Below are positions 2,833 through 27,857 of a DNA stretch of 28,572 bases, piece after piece (position 1 is the first letter of the stretch; the number at the start of each line of letters is the position of its first letter). The notes below the pieces were generated by a model. That model ran no database searches. It worked only from the letters and a program-made list of their open reading frames with translations, and was not told the DNA's origin. The position numbers were made by a program, and so were the translations under genes. Origin of the DNA: a virus. Location of the stretch: positions 1 through 28,572 of the IMG/VR virus record IMGVR_UViG_3300048061_000010; one strand, given 5' to 3'.

Positions 2833-3197
2833 TAATGTCCTCCGTTACCGTTTCTTCTTACTTTATCTTTTAATTCTTCTATATCAGCTAGTGCTTTATC
2901 TAACTGTTCTCTTAAAAATTCTATGTTGACTTTATTAGTCATGTTCATTTCTTGAGTTTCTTCCATTTTTTCTACGGACTTATATAAATCCTCAATTAAA
3001 AAATGTTGTTCCTGGTCCGTAGGAACTTGCTCAGATTTTTTTAACAAATCGTTTTCAAATAGTTCTCTTGAAGTTTCTAAACTTGTTAATCTTGCTGTAA
3101 CTTCTGTATATCCAAATACACCCATTGCTACTGCTATAACAATACCAATCATGTTTTTAATTGGCATAGCAACTGATGTGTTTTCTGAAATTTTCAT
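2832..3197 (-). CDS. Membrane-anchored coiled-coil protein, spanin-like candidate
   Basis: The 121-aa product has one N-terminal membrane segment (about residues 15-30, NMIGIVIAVAMGVFGY). A long charged region rich in Glu, Lys, Leu and Gln follows, with heptad character from about residue 35 to 112, then a basic, Gly-rich end (RRNGNGGH). One N-terminal span plus a periplasmic coiled coil is the layout of an inner-membrane spanin (Rz, T7 gp18.5). No embedded or overlapping lipoprotein gene, the usual o-spanin partner, is visible, so the spanin call is only a candidate. A structural anchor is the alternative. Both its start (3197) and its stop (2832) are TAATG junctions. Confidence 0.7.
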   Translation of the reverse strand: MKISENTSVAMPIKNMIGIVIAVAMGVFGYTEVTARLTSLETSRELFENDLLKKSEQVPTDQEQHFLIEDLYKSVEKMEETQEMNMTNKVNIEFLREQLDKALADIEELKDKVRRNGNGGH

Positions 3198-3583
3198 TAT
3201 TTCCTTTTCATTAAGTCAACACCTTTAAGACCATAAATTGAGCCAACTACTCCTATGAATAATCCCTGATACCAAAAAGGCATATTAGAAAAATACTCAA
3301 AGAAAATATCTAGTTTAGCACGTATGTTAGGGTCGTCAGAGAAAACAGAGTAAGCCAATAGAATAATAGGAATGGATATAAGAACCAAGACGAATTCATC
3401 TTTCCAACCATTATCATTACTAGCGATAACAGCTTTCTTATATTCGACTTCACCTTTGACCATCCTTTCTACATGGTTTCTCTCTGCTACTGCTTCGAGT
3501 TGCTTTGTTTCTTTTTTTGTTTGATAAATGTTTACTGCTGTTTTAGCACCAAACGTTAATAATTTTAATATTGGTAATCCCAT
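3197..3583 (-). CDS. 128-aa two-span membrane protein, holin-like candidate
   Basis: The first 60 residues are amphipathic and highly charged (YQTKKETKQLEAVAERNHVER). They are followed by WKDEF and a strong membrane segment (about 64-82), an acidic stretch, and a second span (about 104-121, containing YQGLFIGVVGSIYGLKG). The protein ends in VDLMKRK. The WKDEF-span-FWYQ-span pattern resembles 3TM/GTA-type holin families as I remember them, though no search could be run. It lies within the lysis-type block and is translationally coupled on both sides (TAATG at 3583 and 3197). Holin is the best guess. A baseplate or virion membrane protein remains possible. Confidence 0.72.
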   Translation of the reverse strand: MGLPILKLLTFGAKTAVNIYQTKKETKQLEAVAERNHVERMVKGEVEYKKAVIASNDNGWKDEFVLVLISIPIILLAYSVFSDDPNIRAKLDIFFEYFSNMPFWYQGLFIGVVGSIYGLKGVDLMKRK

Positions 3584-16630: not shown

Positions 16631-17101
16631 TTATTTTAACTCCTTCATTACTAATATAAAATTTAATTTTTCATGTCCGTAGGGTAACTTTTTCTTTGGT
16701 TCAAATCCTAAAAACTGTAACCACTTTAAAGTTTCCCAATTCCGTTCATCTACAAAATTGTAAAGATACTTATAACCTTTACCCATTTCGTTTACCCAAT
16801 GAGGACATTCTTTTAAAAATTGTCTTACATGGTTTCTTAATTGGTCGCTTGATAACATCCAAGCTACACCATAATCTTTTTCATAGGCACATGGGGTTGA
16901 CCCAAACATACCAATAACACCTTCTTCTTTTGTTCCTAAGATTGAGTAGTTTCTTGCGCCTTCATAAGTAAAGGGAAGAACTAATGCCTTTAATGGACTT
17001 AGGTTGTCCGAAGCTTTAATCTCACGTCTATCTGCTAAACGCATTTTTGGTGCTAAGTCGATACAATCATTAATGACTGCTTCTCTTACGCATTTTTCCA
17101 T
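16631..17101 (-). CDS. gp13-like protein, GNAT acyltransferase-type fold
   Basis: The start was placed at the ATG at 17101 (MEKCVREAVINDCIDLAPKM), 1 base after the stop of tail tubular protein B and preceded by AAGGATGT. A longer in-frame start at 17140 would overlap that gene by 38 bases. The 156-aa product has a GNAT-like order: an N-terminal 'AVINDCIDLAPKMRLADRRE' helix, a strand around VIGMFGSTPC and AYEKDYGVAWML, and a C-terminal VDERNWETLKWLQFLGFEP, the typical end of acetyltransferases (N..a..wl..lGF). T7 gp13 (138 aa) occupies the same slot and is needed for virion maturation. Whether acyl-CoA is bound is unknown. Confidence 0.82.
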   Translation of the reverse strand: MEKCVREAVINDCIDLAPKMRLADRREIKASDNLSPLKALVLPFTYEGARNYSILGTKEEGVIGMFGSTPCAYEKDYGVAWMLSSDQLRNHVRQFLKECPHWVNEMGKGYKYLYNFVDERNWETLKWLQFLGFEPKKKLPYGHEKLNFILVMKELK

Positions 17102-17102
17102 A

Positions 17103-19595
17103 TTACATCCTTCTATTTCTTCTATGATAAAATCCTTCAATTTCTGCTGATATAAAGTGACAAGGTAAGTGTGAACTTGAAATTAACTTACACACAAATC
17201 CTGTGTTTTTACTTTGTATTGGAATAGTAAATGTACCACTTGCAATGTTAGGAACTCCAACTACTGATGAAGCTGAGTTAATAACATTTCCTGTCATTTC
17301 ATAACTAGTTAAACTTCTACCTTCTGGTAAAACTGTTGCTTTAAAAAATCCACTATCTTGAAAGTCAACATTTAAAGTTCTAATTTGGTATCTTCCAGAA
17401 GTTATTGCTACAGCACCAGTAGAGCCTTGTTCTCTTACATATGGTTTAGAAAACTCATATAAAGATTCAAAAGCAGTACCAAAAATACAAGATGTATGAT
17501 TACCTTGAACTATAACTGTAGTTCCACTTTGACTATCAATTGTTAAGTCAGCACCATTAGTTGCGTCTATAGCCATTAATGTTTGGTTGTGTTCATACGG
17601 AATTGTAAATGTAGTTTTATTTGTTGTGCTGCTGTAACTTCCAGTTAATATTGCTGTTTGCATATCAACATTAATTGGAAAGTTTAAAGAATTAAAATTA
17701 GGATTTCTTAAATCTATTTTTAATAATTTTAAATTTCTGTTTTCATTTGCTAATATGTAAATAAAACTATCGTAAGCTTCTGCTGAAATTATTTGCATAT
17801 TACTAAATGTAAATTTGGACCAGGCTGATTGTACTTTTTTATCAGCATCCCAAAAATATTTATAAACAAACATTGTGTTTGCATTTGTAGCTGTAACGTC
17901 TGAACTTGCTGTATATGGTGCTGTGTTAGTAGAGTCTAACGTGTCGTGACATAATACAACCATTGTATCTTCAATGTTGTTTGAAACAATTTTGTATGCG
18001 TTGTTAGGAATTAATGTGTTAACTCCAATTGTAATATCTAAACCATCATTTGTTAATGTATCATCATCTGCAAAGTATTCTGTAATTGCAGTTTTATCAT
18101 TTCTGTTTTGTGCAAAGTAAACAAATTTACCTGCCGCTTTAGGTTCAACTTTAGTGTCATGTGCAAACGTACTTGTTTTAGAAAGTACGGCTGTAGTTGG
18201 TGTAATACTATCACCAGAAGATTCTAGTATGTATTGTGACTCTGCTGAGAATAATAAAAGTTGTTCGTTAAAATCTATAGAGTTATAAAGTTTGTTTACA
18301 GTAGTACCACTAGCTGCAATATCAATAGGGTCAGTATCTAATACATCTGTTCCTGTTGTTGCATAGAAATTATAATACTCACCGTTTTCTGTCATAATTA
18401 AATTTTGTCCAGAAATAATTCCAAATCTATTTTGAAAGAAAGTTAAGTTTTGTATTTTTTGTCCAACAAAACTTGGTGCAGGATTAGTTGTTTCATCACC
18501 TGCTACTCTGTCAGTGTAAGTTTGTTGTGCAAAAGTAAATGTACCGTTGTTGTTATTAACTAATGCGTGTGGCATTGTAGAATTGTCTAAACCAAGTTTT
18601 ACTCCTGGTCCTACAGTTTCTTTCCAAACACCGTTAGATATAAATTTTACATAATAATCTGAAAGTGTGTCACCTTCTTCACCAGTAATTTGAATAATCA
18701 TATTTGGTTTTGCGTAGTAAGGTAAATCTGTAAAATCTTGTATAGCGTCTTTTATTGCATACATAGCTTGGTTACCAAAACCGTCTGTAGTTTCAATTCC
18801 AAAAGTCCCACTACTAGCTGTAAGATAAATAGTGTTACCGTATTGTGTGCTAGTAAACGTTCCTGTAATTCCAGAATAGTTTGCTAATCCTTGTGACGTA
18901 CTTAGTGTTGCGCCAGTATCAGTTCTAATTGTTTTAAATCCAATTCCGTCTGCACTACTAGACCAGTGTGAAGACGCAGTTCCATATAATAATATATGTG
19001 CAATCTTTTCTGTATCTCTAAATTTACCATCTGTTGAAGCGTCATTACCAGTAGGCATTTGAAATAATACTTCTATTGGGTATGACCAAGTTGAATGATT
19101 TAAAGTAACACTATACTGTCTACCGTATTGTGAACTTTTAACATAAACTAAAGCTTCTTGTACCTTTGCTGCTGTTGTAGAAGAATTTTCTGCTACAGTT
19201 TTTTGTGCGTTAGATACAAATGAATAGTCAGCAATGTTTGTAAATTTAAAATCTTCTAAAGGATTTGTTGAAGTTAAGTAAGAAGTACCATTGGGAGTAG
19301 AAACAGTTTTTTCAACACCTGCTAAATCAAAAACTTTAACACCTTGATTGTAAAATATAGCAACATACTGATTACTACTATCTCTATTAATCCATTGTAC
19401 TGCGCAATTATTTGGTATTGCTTGGTTAGATATTAAGTTAGCAACAAACTGAGTTCCTGCTCTTTTAGATAATCCGTCTATAATGTTTGACTGAAAGTTT
19501 ACTTGGTTCTCAGCTTGAGATACATTTCTTTGAACTGCATTCTGCTGACTAATACCATTAATAAGATTTGGAATTGACTGCGATATAACTGCCAT
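17103..19595 (-). CDS. Tail tubular protein B (T7 gp12-like nozzle protein)
   Basis: The N-terminal segment (VISQSIPNLINGISQQNAVQ, then NIIDGLSKRAGTQFVANL) is the signature of T7 gp12-type nozzle proteins (P-S-L-I-x-G-V-S-Q-Q ... V-x-G-L-x-K-R-P). At 830 aa it compares with 794 aa in T7. Six copies form the tail nozzle below the gp11 ring and bind the fibres. The remainder is beta-rich, with segments such as QNLTFFQNRFGIISGQNLIMTENGEYYNF conserved in the family (quoted here as residues about 385-415 with R, G and N-x-x-x-S-x-x-G positions). It starts 3 bases after the gp11-like gene. Confidence 0.96.
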   Translation of the reverse strand: MAVISQSIPNLINGISQQNAVQRNVSQAENQVNFQSNIIDGLSKRAGTQFVANLISNQAIPNNCAVQWINRDSSNQYVAIFYNQGVKVFDLAGVEKTVSTPNGTSYLTSTNPLEDFKFTNIADYSFVSNAQKTVAENSSTTAAKVQEALVYVKSSQYGRQYSVTLNHSTWSYPIEVLFQMPTGNDASTDGKFRDTEKIAHILLYGTASSHWSSSADGIGFKTIRTDTGATLSTSQGLANYSGITGTFTSTQYGNTIYLTASSGTFGIETTDGFGNQAMYAIKDAIQDFTDLPYYAKPNMIIQITGEEGDTLSDYYVKFISNGVWKETVGPGVKLGLDNSTMPHALVNNNNGTFTFAQQTYTDRVAGDETTNPAPSFVGQKIQNLTFFQNRFGIISGQNLIMTENGEYYNFYATTGTDVLDTDPIDIAASGTTVNKLYNSIDFNEQLLLFSAESQYILESSGDSITPTTAVLSKTSTFAHDTKVEPKAAGKFVYFAQNRNDKTAITEYFADDDTLTNDGLDITIGVNTLIPNNAYKIVSNNIEDTMVVLCHDTLDSTNTAPYTASSDVTATNANTMFVYKYFWDADKKVQSAWSKFTFSNMQIISAEAYDSFIYILANENRNLKLLKIDLRNPNFNSLNFPINVDMQTAILTGSYSSTTNKTTFTIPYEHNQTLMAIDATNGADLTIDSQSGTTVIVQGNHTSCIFGTAFESLYEFSKPYVREQGSTGAVAITSGRYQIRTLNVDFQDSGFFKATVLPEGRSLTSYEMTGNVINSASSVVGVPNIASGTFTIPIQSKNTGFVCKLISSSHLPCHFISAEIEGFYHRRNRRM

Positions 19596-24806: not shown

Positions 24807-24827
24807 CTTCTAATATGGGTACTATTA
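24807..24827 (-). promoter_or_regulatory. Phage RNA polymerase promoter-like element 1 (phi-6.5 position)
   Basis: Read on the minus strand it contains TAATAGTACCCATATTAGAA then G. It begins inside the nrdB stop codon and reads into the 64-aa gene. The 17 bases AGTACCCATATTAGAAG are identical to the element before the tail fibre gene. Predicted +1 is the G at 24810, by comparison with SP6 (TATAGAAG). It sits at the border between nucleotide metabolism and head genes, as phi-6.5 does in T7. Confidence 0.72.
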
Positions 24828-25775
24828 GCCCCACAAATCTCCTGTCATACTTCCTTTTGTGTATTCAGTAGCACGATTTTCAAAGAAATTTGTATGTTCT
24901 ACGCCATTTAAAACCCAATCAAGCCAAGGCAATGGGTTATCTTTGACAGCAAAATTAGGTTTTAATCCTAATTGTAATAGTCTTCTGTCAGCTATATGTC
25001 GTATGTATTGTTTAATTTGGTTTGGCTCAATACCTTCTACACCACCTTGTTCAAAGGCTAAGTCTATAAATTTATCTTCTAATGATACCATGTCTCTTGC
25101 AACATCGTATAAAGTTTTCTTAAATTCATCATTCCAAATATGTTTGTTCTCATCTATTAAAGCATGAAATAATTTTATCATGTTATCAACGTGATGACTT
25201 TCATCTCTTATGGACCAGGTAACTATCTGACACATACCTTTCATTTTACCAAATCTTTGAAAGTTTAATAACATTACAAAAGAAGCAAAGAGCTGCAATC
25301 CTTCTCCGAATGCTGAGAACGTTGCAAGTTCTCTAGCCATACCTTCAACACCTTCACCTTTACTTCTAAAAAGATAATCATGTTTGTCTGACATAGCTTT
25401 GTATTCTTGAAATGCTTTGTACTCTGTGTCTGGTAAACCAATTGTGTCATTTAATAATGAATATGAATGTGCGTGATTAGCTTCACTTGTTGCAATAGAA
25501 GATAACATCATTCTAATTTCTGGTGGTTTAAATTTAGGAATATAATTATCAAGGTACGCTTGAGCAATGTCGACATCACCTTGCGTAAAGAACTTTAATA
25601 TTTGTGTTATTAAATTCTTTTCCTTAGTGCTTAATCTTTCATTCCAATCTCGTACATCTTCTGCTAGTGAAACTTCACTTGGTAACCAATGCATTTTTTG
25701 TTGTTGGTCGTAAGCTTCGAAAGCCCACGGATATTGAAACGGTTTGTAATATTCCCTTGCTTTTAATAAACTCAT
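24825..25775 (-). CDS. nrdB: Ribonucleotide reductase class Ia small (radical) subunit
   Basis: The 316-aa subunit houses the di-iron site and tyrosyl radical that starts reduction of ribonucleotides by NrdA. All ligands can be seen: D67 (FFTQGD), E98 and H101 (SEANH), E158 (FGEGLQLF), and E192 and H195 (RDESHH). The radical Tyr is at 105 (HAHSY), spaced from H101 as in E. coli Y122 from H118, so it is a normal Tyr-radical enzyme. The C-terminus (EYTKGSMTGDLWG) is the tail that should dock into NrdA. The ATG overlaps the preceding 55-aa gene by 4 bases (ATGA). The phage makes dNTPs from host RNA pools with it. Confidence 0.97.
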   Translation of the reverse strand: MSLLKAREYYKPFQYPWAFEAYDQQQKMHWLPSEVSLAEDVRDWNERLSTKEKNLITQILKFFTQGDVDIAQAYLDNYIPKFKPPEIRMMLSSIATSEANHAHSYSLLNDTIGLPDTEYKAFQEYKAMSDKHDYLFRSKGEGVEGMARELATFSAFGEGLQLFASFVMLLNFQRFGKMKGMCQIVTWSIRDESHHVDNMIKLFHALIDENKHIWNDEFKKTLYDVARDMVSLEDKFIDLAFEQGGVEGIEPNQIKQYIRHIADRRLLQLGLKPNFAVKDNPLPWLDWVLNGVEHTNFFENRATEYTKGSMTGDLWG

Positions 25776-25939
25776 CCTAGTAGTTCTATCCCTTCTATTA
25801 AAATAATTATTGCTAACTCTACAGCTAAAACCGTATGGTAAACTGTCCAGAGTACACTTTGTTTGTCTTTCTTTTTATGACACCCACAACATTTCTTTTT
25901 TGGTTTGTTGAAGTTGTCAAATATACTGCTGTCTGTCAT
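25772..25939 (-). CDS. 55-aa CxxCH membrane protein between the nrd genes
   Basis: This gene is short and easily missed. The N-terminal half is polar (MTDSSIFDNFNKPKKK), then CCGCHKKKDK gives Cys17, Cys18, Cys20 and His21. A membrane segment follows (about 30-53, WTVYHTVLAVELAIIILIEG). ATGA overlaps at both ends (25939 with the previous gene, 25775 with nrdB) place it firmly in the nrd transcript. The Cys/His cluster could bind zinc or iron, or act as a thiol pair. It is too short for a glutaredoxin. The basic flank before the span suggests the Cys/His part is cytoplasmic, which argues against covalent haem. The family is not recognised. Confidence 0.72.
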   Translation of the reverse strand: MTDSSIFDNFNKPKKKCCGCHKKKDKQSVLWTVYHTVLAVELAIIILIEGIELLG

Positions 25940-26103
25940 TTTCCTTGTCCTCTATTTTTCAATTGCTTTCTATTCCTTCCTTGTCTTTTCTTTTTATTCA
26001 TCATACTTGTGCTTGGTCTTCCACCAATGCTAGTCTTTTTATATTTAGACCTAGTCTCATGTGCTACGTCATTTGATAATAAATTATTTTTCTTCTTTGC
26101 CAT
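25936..26103 (-). CDS. 55-aa strongly basic protein downstream of nrdA
   Basis: This gene is short and easily missed. The protein begins MAKKKNNLLSNDVAHETRSK, contains KYKKTSIGGRPSTS and ends KQLKNRGQGK, with about 20 Lys/Arg in 55 residues and no acidic cluster. It looks like a small nucleic-acid-binding protein. I recall relatives with R-x-K-K-T-S-I-G and a final RGQG-[KR] in marine T7-like phages and cyanophages, uncharacterised. Its ATG shares an A with the nrdA stop (TAATG at 26103), and its stop overlaps the next gene. Confidence 0.78.
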   Translation of the reverse strand: MAKKKNNLLSNDVAHETRSKYKKTSIGGRPSTSMMNKKKRQGRNRKQLKNRGQGK

Positions 26104-27857
26104 TAAGCTTCACAAGCTAGACACTCTTCTGCGTCTGGTCTAACTTTCCTTTCTATCTTAGTTGAAATTATTTCTGCTCTTTTAATTGCTTCTGAACGAC
26201 AGTAATAAAGAGTCTTTAATTTTTTCTTCCATGCTGAAAGATGAAGCATATGTAAATCTTTAATGTTAACATCCGCAGGTACAAAAATGTTTAAGCTTTG
26301 AGACTGACAAATAAATTCTTGTCTGTCAGCAGCCAAGTCAACAATCCATCTTTGGTCTATTTCAATAGCTGTAGCAAATACATCTTTTTCCCAATCAGAT
26401 AATTCTTTTAAATGTCTTACCGAACCTCTTTTAGATACAATACTTTTCCATGTCTCTTCATTGTCTATATCTTTTTCTTTAAGTAGTTTTTCTAAGTATT
26501 TATTTTTCATTAAAAAAGTACCACTCATAGTTTTCTGACTATAAACATTTGCTCTTACTGGTTCGATGGAAGGACTAGTGCTACCACAAATAATACTGCT
26601 ACTTGCGTTTGGTGCGATTGCCAATAAATGTGCATTACGTAAACCAGTGCCTTCCATGTCTGGTGCTTCACCTCTTTCTTCAGCGAGTCTACGTGAAGTT
26701 TCTAGTGCTTGTTTTTTTATGTTTCTAAATATAGATAAGTTTTGTCCTTTAGCTAAAGCACTTGCGAAAGGTATGTTTTTACTTTGGAGATACGAATGGA
26801 AACCCATTGTCCCCAATCCAATACTACGTTCACGCATAGCAGAATACTTAGCACGGTGTAAACTATCACTAGCGTTATTAATAAAATACTCCAAGACATT
26901 ATCGAGAAACCTAACCACGTCAGGTATGAAATTATTGTCTTCTTTCCATTCATCATATTTTTCTAAGTTAAGTGAAGACAAACAACACACGGCTGTTCGT
27001 TCTTCGTTTGTTGGTAATGTAATTTCACTACATAAATTTGAGTGATGTACTTTTAATCCAATTTTCTTCTGAGACTCCGGCAAAGACTTTTGGACTGTGT
27101 CAATGAAACAGACGTAAGGTTCACCAGTCGCCACTCTAGTCTCAAGAATTTTTTGCCATAATTTTTTAGCAGAGACTTTTCTAACCACTCGTTTTGTATG
27201 TGGGTCAATAAGTTCCCAAGTATCATCGGCACTAGGGTCAGTAGTGCAATTGTCAATAACAGACATAAATTTATCAGTAACATTAATACCATGATGAAGG
27301 TTGAGACATTTACGATGAACGTCCCCACCACTAGGTTTACGCATTTCGATAAACTCTTCAATTTCTGGATGGGATATATCTTGATATGCTGCATAACTTC
27401 CTCTTCTTGTTTTACCTTGAGAGAACGCCAACATTTCTGAGTCAACAATGTGCATGAATGGAATTGAGCCAGTAGATATTGAGCCACCAGAAGTTGATGT
27501 TCCGTCACTTCTTATGTGTCCCCAATGTCCACCGATTCCTCCACCCACTGTAGCTAACCAAGCGTTCTCTGTGTAGTGTTCTGTCAATCCAACTCGACTG
27601 TCTGGAACATAATTAAGGAAGCACGAAATAGGCATTCCTCTTTTAGTTCCTCCATTAGTCAGAATAGGAGTAGAAAACATAAACCATAGATTAGAAGCGT
27701 AAGAATATATTCTATCAGCCATAGCAGAATCATCTGAAAATATTTTAGATACTCTATAGAATGCTTCTTGAGGACTTTGCTCTTCCTCTGTTAAATATCT
27801 ATCTTTTAATATTCTCAAACCTGCGTCTGATAATAATGAGTCCTTACTATAATCCAT
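26103..27857 (-). CDS. nrdA: Ribonucleotide reductase class Ia large (catalytic) subunit, no ATP-cone
   Basis: This subunit reduces ribonucleoside diphosphates to deoxy forms with NrdB. Catalytic residues are in place: C79 (PISCFLN) and C291 (AVCCLSSLNL) as the redox pair, and N274, C276 and E278 (SNLCSE) as the thiyl-radical centre. The radical-relay tyrosines are in KTLYYC near the C-terminus, and the C-terminal shuttle pair is C579/C582 (ECLACEA). PNASSS (about 415) forms part of the phosphate site. At 584 aa it is about 180 shorter than E. coli NrdA (761). The N-terminal ATP-cone that gives dATP inhibition is absent: the protein begins near the first helices of the catalytic domain. An AGGAAAC ribosome binding site precedes the ATG. 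Confidence 0.97.
   Translation of the reverse strand: MDYSKDSLLSDAGLRILKDRYLTEEEQSPQEAFYRVSKIFSDDSAMADRIYSYASNLWFMFSTPILTNGGTKRGMPISCFLNYVPDSRVGLTEHYTENAWLATVGGGIGGHWGHIRSDGTSTSGGSISTGSIPFMHIVDSEMLAFSQGKTRRGSYAAYQDISHPEIEEFIEMRKPSGGDVHRKCLNLHHGINVTDKFMSVIDNCTTDPSADDTWELIDPHTKRVVRKVSAKKLWQKILETRVATGEPYVCFIDTVQKSLPESQKKIGLKVHHSNLCSEITLPTNEERTAVCCLSSLNLEKYDEWKEDNNFIPDVVRFLDNVLEYFINNASDSLHRAKYSAMRERSIGLGTMGFHSYLQSKNIPFASALAKGQNLSIFRNIKKQALETSRRLAEERGEAPDMEGTGLRNAHLLAIAPNASSSIICGSTSPSIEPVRANVYSQKTMSGTFLMKNKYLEKLLKEKDIDNEETWKSIVSKRGSVRHLKELSDWEKDVFATAIEIDQRWIVDLAADRQEFICQSQSLNIFVPADVNIKDLHMLHLSAWKKKLKTLYYCRSEAIKRAEIISTKIERKVRPDAEECLACEA

Follow-up and report, generated by a model that had tools for sequence, protein, structure and literature searches.

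A conserved membrane helix encoded between nrdA and nrdB of pelagiphages

Genes at the nrd locus

We investigated two small genes situated between the ribonucleotide reductase (RNR) genes nrdA and nrdB in a 28.6-kb fragment (28,572 nt) of the IMG/VR virus record IMGVR_UViG_3300048061_000010, referred to below as the window. One encodes a basic protein, here called BAS, and the other a membrane protein, here called TM, which is our main subject. The gene order along the minus strand is exonuclease, DUF3310 protein, nrdA, BAS, TM and nrdB, with the following features (dN/dS, ratio of nonsynonymous to synonymous substitution rates; aa, amino acids).

26103..27857, minus strand: nrdA, class I ribonucleotide reductase large subunit, 584 aa (Pfam PF02867, PF00317; PHROG 84)
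25936..26103, minus strand: BAS, 55-aa basic protein (family alignment, dN/dS 0.28)
25772..25939, minus strand: TM, 55-aa one-span membrane protein (alignments, dN/dS, AlphaFold)
25877..25891, minus strand: C17-C18-G19-C20-H21 of TM, a local variant that is not conserved
25781..25855, minus strand: conserved TM helix, residues 29-53 (VLWTVYHTVLAVELAIIILIEGIEL)
24825..25775, minus strand: nrdB, class I reductase small subunit, 316 aa (Pfam PF00268)

The first-pass annotation of this DNA had described nrdA, two 55-aa genes and nrdB as one coupled chain, and this arrangement was confirmed, with all four genes on the minus strand, one base shared between nrdA and BAS (TAATG), and 4-base overlaps (ATGA) at both the BAS/TM and TM/nrdB junctions. 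BAS is indeed very basic (18 Lys and Arg against 2 Asp and Glu), and TM does carry C17, C18, C20 and H21 ahead of a membrane span. Overlaps of 1 or 4 bases, however, occur at about 11 of the 32 junctions between genes of the window, and 8 of these lie away from nrd (counted on the list of open reading frames, ORFs); they are the normal packing of this phage, and therefore coupling alone says little and is a weak sign of a special link. Median dN/dS was 0.23 for TM, 0.28 for BAS and 0.10 for nrdB, the gene order recurs in many phages, and both small genes are real genes under purifying selection.

The window is close to HTVC019P-type pelagiphages and to an uncultured Sieqvirus phage, MedDCM-OCT-S42-C7, with which it shares 89.6% DNA identity across the locus. 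The products of nrdA and nrdB form a class I RNR, the barrel domain and the ferritin-like small subunit both scoring over family cut-offs. NrdA matched PF02867 (E 2.9e-116, 389.6 bits) and also PF00317, with Pfam coverage of the all-alpha and barrel domains only and no separate N-terminal ATP-cone match in the Pfam search; its C-terminal tail carries a CxxC (ECLACEA), and its best solved relative is 6dqw_A (E 6e-119). NrdB matched PF00268 (E 1.2e-73, 248.4 bits), its best solved relative is 9dws_A (E 7e-107), and the metal ligands and radical tyrosine could be read from the sequence (E-x2-H-x3-Y in SEANHAHSY, FGEGLQLF, DESHH). The first-pass annotation also remarked on the absence of a glutaredoxin gene; the window is a fragment and offers no proof for its whole genome, and the complete HTVC019P genome has none annotated.

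Conservation of TM in pelagiphage nrd loci

TM is predicted to form a single helix over residues 26-54, with block means of the AlphaFold confidence score (pLDDT) of 86-94 over the span. To avoid choosing sequences by the TM motif, a set of loci was found by NrdB alone (the NrdB-anchored set), yielding 45 distinct TM sequences. Ten helix positions were invariant among them (W31, Y34, H35, L38, E41, L42, I48, E49, E52 and L53, window numbering) and T36 and A39 were each kept in 41 of the 45, giving the consensus W-x2-Y-H-T-x-L-A-x-E-L-x5-I-E-x2-E-L. Conservation along the helix had a period of 100 degrees per residue (permutation p 0.00065), and therefore one helical face is kept. The ratio of nonsynonymous to synonymous polymorphism (pN/pS) was 0.28 in the helix core compared with 0.43 in the N-terminus, and N-termini were swapped wholesale among relatives (MTDSSIFD..., MNYPPIKSFGF..., MDGKKPDVIQVEYDDKK...) while the helix stayed constant. 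This contrast between an invariant helix and a changing N-terminus, seen in loci selected through NrdB and not through TM, supports the helix as the functional part.

The cysteines ahead of the helix followed a different pattern. Any Cys was present in 20 of the 45 sequences, CxC in 19, CxCH in 7 and CCxCH in 6, and in the larger set of 113 distinct nrd-locus TM sequences CCxCH was found in 8. The window protein has CCGCH, the first Cys is often Tyr in relatives, and most relatives have no Cys. This speaks against the proposal of the first-pass annotation that the Cys/His protein could be a redox or metal (iron) helper of the reductase, an idea it had made dependent on conservation of these residues, and a Cys/His metal or redox site in TM was rejected because the ligands are not conserved. 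TM was likewise rejected as a c-type cytochrome, in which a conserved CxxCH would face the outside of the membrane; the Cys motif lies in the basic N-terminal part, which is cytosolic by the positive-inside rule. Profile searches of Pfam, PHROG and PDB gave no convincing named family for TM, and the window TM itself matched no PHROG or Pfam family.

Because tblastn with TM against GenBank phages was almost blind, probably through low-complexity filter masking of the helix, gene order was taken directly from the retrieved loci. TM was present in 65 of the 80 NrdB-anchored loci; of the remaining 15, 12 had a complete nrdA-nrdB junction without TM and 3 were cut off. For TM in PELAGIPHAGES, 16 of the 16 cultured or fosmid pelagiphages examined (HTVC019P, Bylgja and MedDCM types) carried it between nrdA and nrdB, mostly annotated as hypothetical, and the order in cultured phages was nrdA-(BAS)-TM-nrdB. 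The counterparts in cultured pelagiphages, including HTVC019P AGE60601.1, HTVC022P P022_gp23 and HTVC109P P109_gp25, resemble the window TM in place, helix and, mostly, the ATGA overlap with nrdB; they differ in being annotated as hypothetical only and, in several cases such as HTVC019P and HTVC022P, in having no cysteines. On an NrdB tree of 102 rows, a sample that came partly from TM searches, the TM label required 5 changes compared with 13.3 for shuffled labels, and the pelagiphage NrdB tree had 88 rows with TM and 11 without. The few label changes therefore indicate that TM is stably inherited with a few losses, and TM is a genuine nrd-operon gene in pelagiphages.

In HTVC022P, which carries TM between its nrdA and nrdB, nrdAB are reported as middle-stage genes (PMC12753301); the main text of that paper makes no mention of the gene between them. 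A literature search for a small membrane gene between nrdA and nrdB found none, and the same junction is occupied by homing endonucleases in T5-like phages (PMC3326045) and, according to the literature, in Campylobacter phages. The pelagiphages Kolga EXVC016S, a siphovirus, and HTVC115P have nrdA-nrdB without TM, and none was found elsewhere in either record. The nrdA-nrdB gap of Kolga EXVC016S holds a different 32-aa hydrophobic ORF (2970-3068, minus strand; MGWFEKLLIGLLGGYLGYVFILALINTICDCI). Genes for S-adenosylmethionine decarboxylase were observed upstream of nrdA in HTVC109P, HTVC201P and Eistla.

Relatives of BAS, a protein with the motif KKTSIGxxPS...MNKxKR...GQGK, were found at 64 loci with nrd, from a few close pelagiphage lineages, and at 48 loci without nrd. 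In Fussvirus and Stopavirus they sit between the scaffold and capsid genes, and in nrd-less podoviruses near terminase, and BAS as an nrd gene is not supported by these positions. The family phrog_17967 was matched by 13 of 30 BAS relatives (best E 8.8e-07), the window BAS falling below threshold. BAS is a separate small basic gene, unrelated to TM, that one pelagiphage lineage carries as an insertion at the nrdA-nrdB junction.

The wider W-x2-Y-H-T family

To follow the helix beyond pelagiphages, DNA was scanned for the motifs W-x2-Y-H-T-x-L-A-x-E-L and W(V/I)WYHT, both considered among the matches listed, and WH(I/V)YHT, for which the set was complete. Since each search dictates the motif residues of its own set, these residues are no evidence of conservation; the loci are related and in part shared among the searches, many contigs are fragments, and a missing RNR in a locus does not show its absence from the genome. 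The first motif returned many further viruses among the matches listed. The same strictly conserved helix is common to T7-like and T4-like marine phages that are otherwise unrelated, with one copy per TM-bearing record tested. Some WxWYHT members weakly matched PHROG 26168 and 35006 (best E 0.0013 and 7.8e-05), which have no functional label.

In the WH(I/V)YHT set, 19 of 77 loci (6 of 38 distinct cores) had RNR genes or belonged to one RNR-bearing pelagiphage subgroup, and in the WxWYHT set RNR genes lay within 500 bases of TM in 10 of 134 loci among the matches listed, 7 of which represent one divergent nrdA/nrdB lineage (loci L375, L437, L448, L455, L463, L465 and L490). A class II gene, nrdJ, adjoins TM in L319 and L320, the order in L319 being ThyX-like, NrdJ, TM, and L451 (604-4706, minus strand) contains in one run nrdA (783 aa), nrdB (368 aa), a 41-aa ORF, a TM relative and a glutaredoxin-like gene, the last two overlapping by 4 bases. 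Members of the wider family were thus mostly away from nrd (58 of 77 WH(I/V)YHT and about 124 of 134 listed WxWYHT loci), which the first-pass annotation had itself named as a finding that would speak against its proposal. In phage C48C1 a distance of 17 kb separates TM from nrdB, and TM-bearing records of 201 kb and 322 kb gave no class I/II RNR match (PF00268, PF02867). TM as an accessory dedicated to RNR, present with it and not without it, was rejected, most wide-family loci having no RNR nearby.

Frequent neighbours of TM were UvsY, UvsW-type helicase, primase, SbcD-like nuclease, deoxynucleoside monophosphate kinase, thymidylate synthase, GTP cyclohydrolase and RNR; late sigma factor, phosphoribosyl transferase and QueE-like genes were further neighbours, and in some cases head closure, capsid, endolysin or amidase genes. 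No one consistent neighbour was found among the examined loci. Helices almost identical to each other came both from an nrd operon (L145) and from places with no nrd gene nearby (L146, L151). Among large phages, S-adenosylmethionine decarboxylase genes adjoin TM relatives in L315 (11804-12241) and L372 (5417-5869), and a HesB/IscA-looking protein is encoded upstream of the TM relative in L447 (1197-1514), where the nearest PHROG label in that scan may be ferrochelatase.

Elsewhere in the window, the following features were recorded.

3197-3583, minus strand: 128-aa membrane protein, phrog_2524 (no functional label); similar proteins lie directly upstream of TM and amidase in L342, L395 and L404
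2059-2331, minus strand: 90-aa membrane protein adjoining the terminase gene; weak PnuC-like match (phrog_1880, E 1.4e-05; Pfam below cut-off)
16631-17140, minus strand: T7 gp13-like ORF (internal virion protein, phrog_308), with a called TTG start that falls within the end of the gene before it, 17103-19595

Possible roles of TM

Our preferred reading, to which we assign slightly less than an even chance, is that TM assists phage DNA synthesis or host takeover from within the membrane, through a docking helix, and is not a metal or redox helper of the reductase on the soluble side. The single transmembrane helix would be its working part, one face of which (W, Y, H, L, E, L, I, E, E) may dock onto another membrane helix, most likely in a conserved host inner-membrane protein or in a second copy of TM, while the short cytosolic part before it would be variable and replaceable. 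In pelagiphages TM is probably made together with nrdA and nrdB in the middle, DNA-synthesis phase of infection, and in other marine phages the gene is found in clusters for replication, recombination or nucleotide metabolism, or in some cases close to lysis or head genes. The presence of the same helix in many unrelated marine phages suggests that TM probably acts in the host membrane and not as the metal helper of an enzyme, and its recurrent association with genes of nucleotide metabolism and replication suggests that it functions during the DNA-synthesis phase; TM may neighbour RNR because both serve phage DNA synthesis.

Several observations weigh against this reading. No host homologue of TM was found, apart from one distant match on a contig of a Verrucomicrobia metagenome-assembled genome, and TM genes stand beside endolysin or amidase genes in some phages, which fits lysis. 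In addition, RNR adjacency in 10 of the 134 listed loci compares with an expectation of 6.4 for genes drawn at random from those loci (P 0.037), in a test whose loci are not independent, several being short and related; the excess over random expectation is suggestive, only weakly significant, and leaves room for a direct RNR role.

Such a direct role could take the form of a membrane anchor or adaptor that keeps the phage RNR, or a deoxynucleotide-synthesis complex, at the membrane site of phage DNA synthesis, an idea resembling that of the membrane protein p16.7 of phi29. The fixed place of TM between nrdA and nrdB in pelagiphages is consistent with an anchor, as is its position beside divergent nrdA/nrdB (L375, L465, L490), beside class II NrdJ (L319, L320) and in the nrdA-nrdB-TM-glutaredoxin run of L451; the NrdB of the L375 lineage is on a very long branch from pelagiphage NrdBs, implying that the pairing is ancient or has more than one origin. 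In an anchor, however, the cytosolic enzyme-binding part should be conserved and the helix free to vary, and the opposite was seen. That an enzyme anchor or a metal helper should show the reverse of the observed pattern is our chief ground for placing the function in the helix. Most wider-family loci are also not beside RNR, the 201-kb and 322-kb records have no class I/II match, and pelagiphage relatives with nrdA-nrdB exist without TM. Direct anchoring of RNR by TM is possible, but it is a poor fit to the conservation pattern and we judge the anchor unlikely. It is also rather unlikely that TM has no functional tie to the reductase and is a host-takeover gene at a tolerated junction, kept there by descent and operon timing. 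The very diverse neighbours of the wider family, the near-identical helices within and away from nrd operons, and the other small genes at the same junction, such as the 32-aa ORF of Kolga EXVC016S and the homing endonucleases of T5-like phages (PMC3326045), speak for it, but adjacency of TM to both class I and class II RNR genes recurs in separate lineages.

As a further alternative, TM could be a lysis protein of the holin or pinholin-like kind: it is small, with one span containing charged residues, and in nrd-less podoviruses it sits between a small membrane gene (a relative of window 3197-3583) and an amidase (L342, L395, L404) or close to a lysozyme (L035, L063); lysozyme follows it in some T4-like phages (L432, L501, L354). 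Most family members, however, have no adjoining lysis gene, and the pelagiphage TM lies with nrd genes described as middle-stage (PMC12753301), far from the terminase-proximal region. A lysis role thus fits a minority of TM contexts, in a few nrd-less phages and not in pelagiphages, and is distinctly improbable for TM overall. We consider it very unlikely that TM is a heme-binding, electron-transfer helix, two copies of which would hold a b-type heme through the invariant His and supply electrons for DNA-precursor synthesis. The cytochrome b559 beta subunit PsbF likewise has one span and an RW-x3-HT with the same spacing as the WxWYHT group; the wide-family profile aligned RW-x3-H-T-(I/L) with its heme-His segment (hhalign P 0.00095), none of 250 control membrane ORFs scored as well against PsbF, and both RNR classes and glutaredoxin are among the neighbours of TM. 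PsbF, however, was selected by visual inspection, the aligned segment is 19 residues long with an hhalign probability of 22%, the pelagiphage profile alone gave P 0.018, PsbE did not match (P 0.39), and there was no Pfam match to the PsbF family at E 1; moreover, pelagiphage TM lacks the R before W and has no photosystem II link. The predicted heme-binding helix is a lead only. An extension of it, in which marine phages would use cytochrome-like or electron-carrying helices with an invariant His to feed reducing power from the host membrane into DNA-precursor synthesis, would explain the repeated RNR adjacency, and we give it scarcely any credence.

The nrdAB-yfaE operon of Escherichia coli is a class I RNR operon with a small accessory gene, likewise beside nrdA/nrdB and in one transcription direction; YfaE is a soluble ferredoxin, whereas TM is a membrane helix without conserved Cys. 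Pelagiphages, whose hosts are SAR11 bacteria, are among the most abundant viruses of the ocean, and TM, in nearly all of their nrd operons, has until now been listed only as hypothetical. Because T7-like and T4-like marine phages have this helix in common, it points to one shared membrane target in very different hosts, and identifying that target would give fresh insight into the way phages link the host membrane with the synthesis of DNA.

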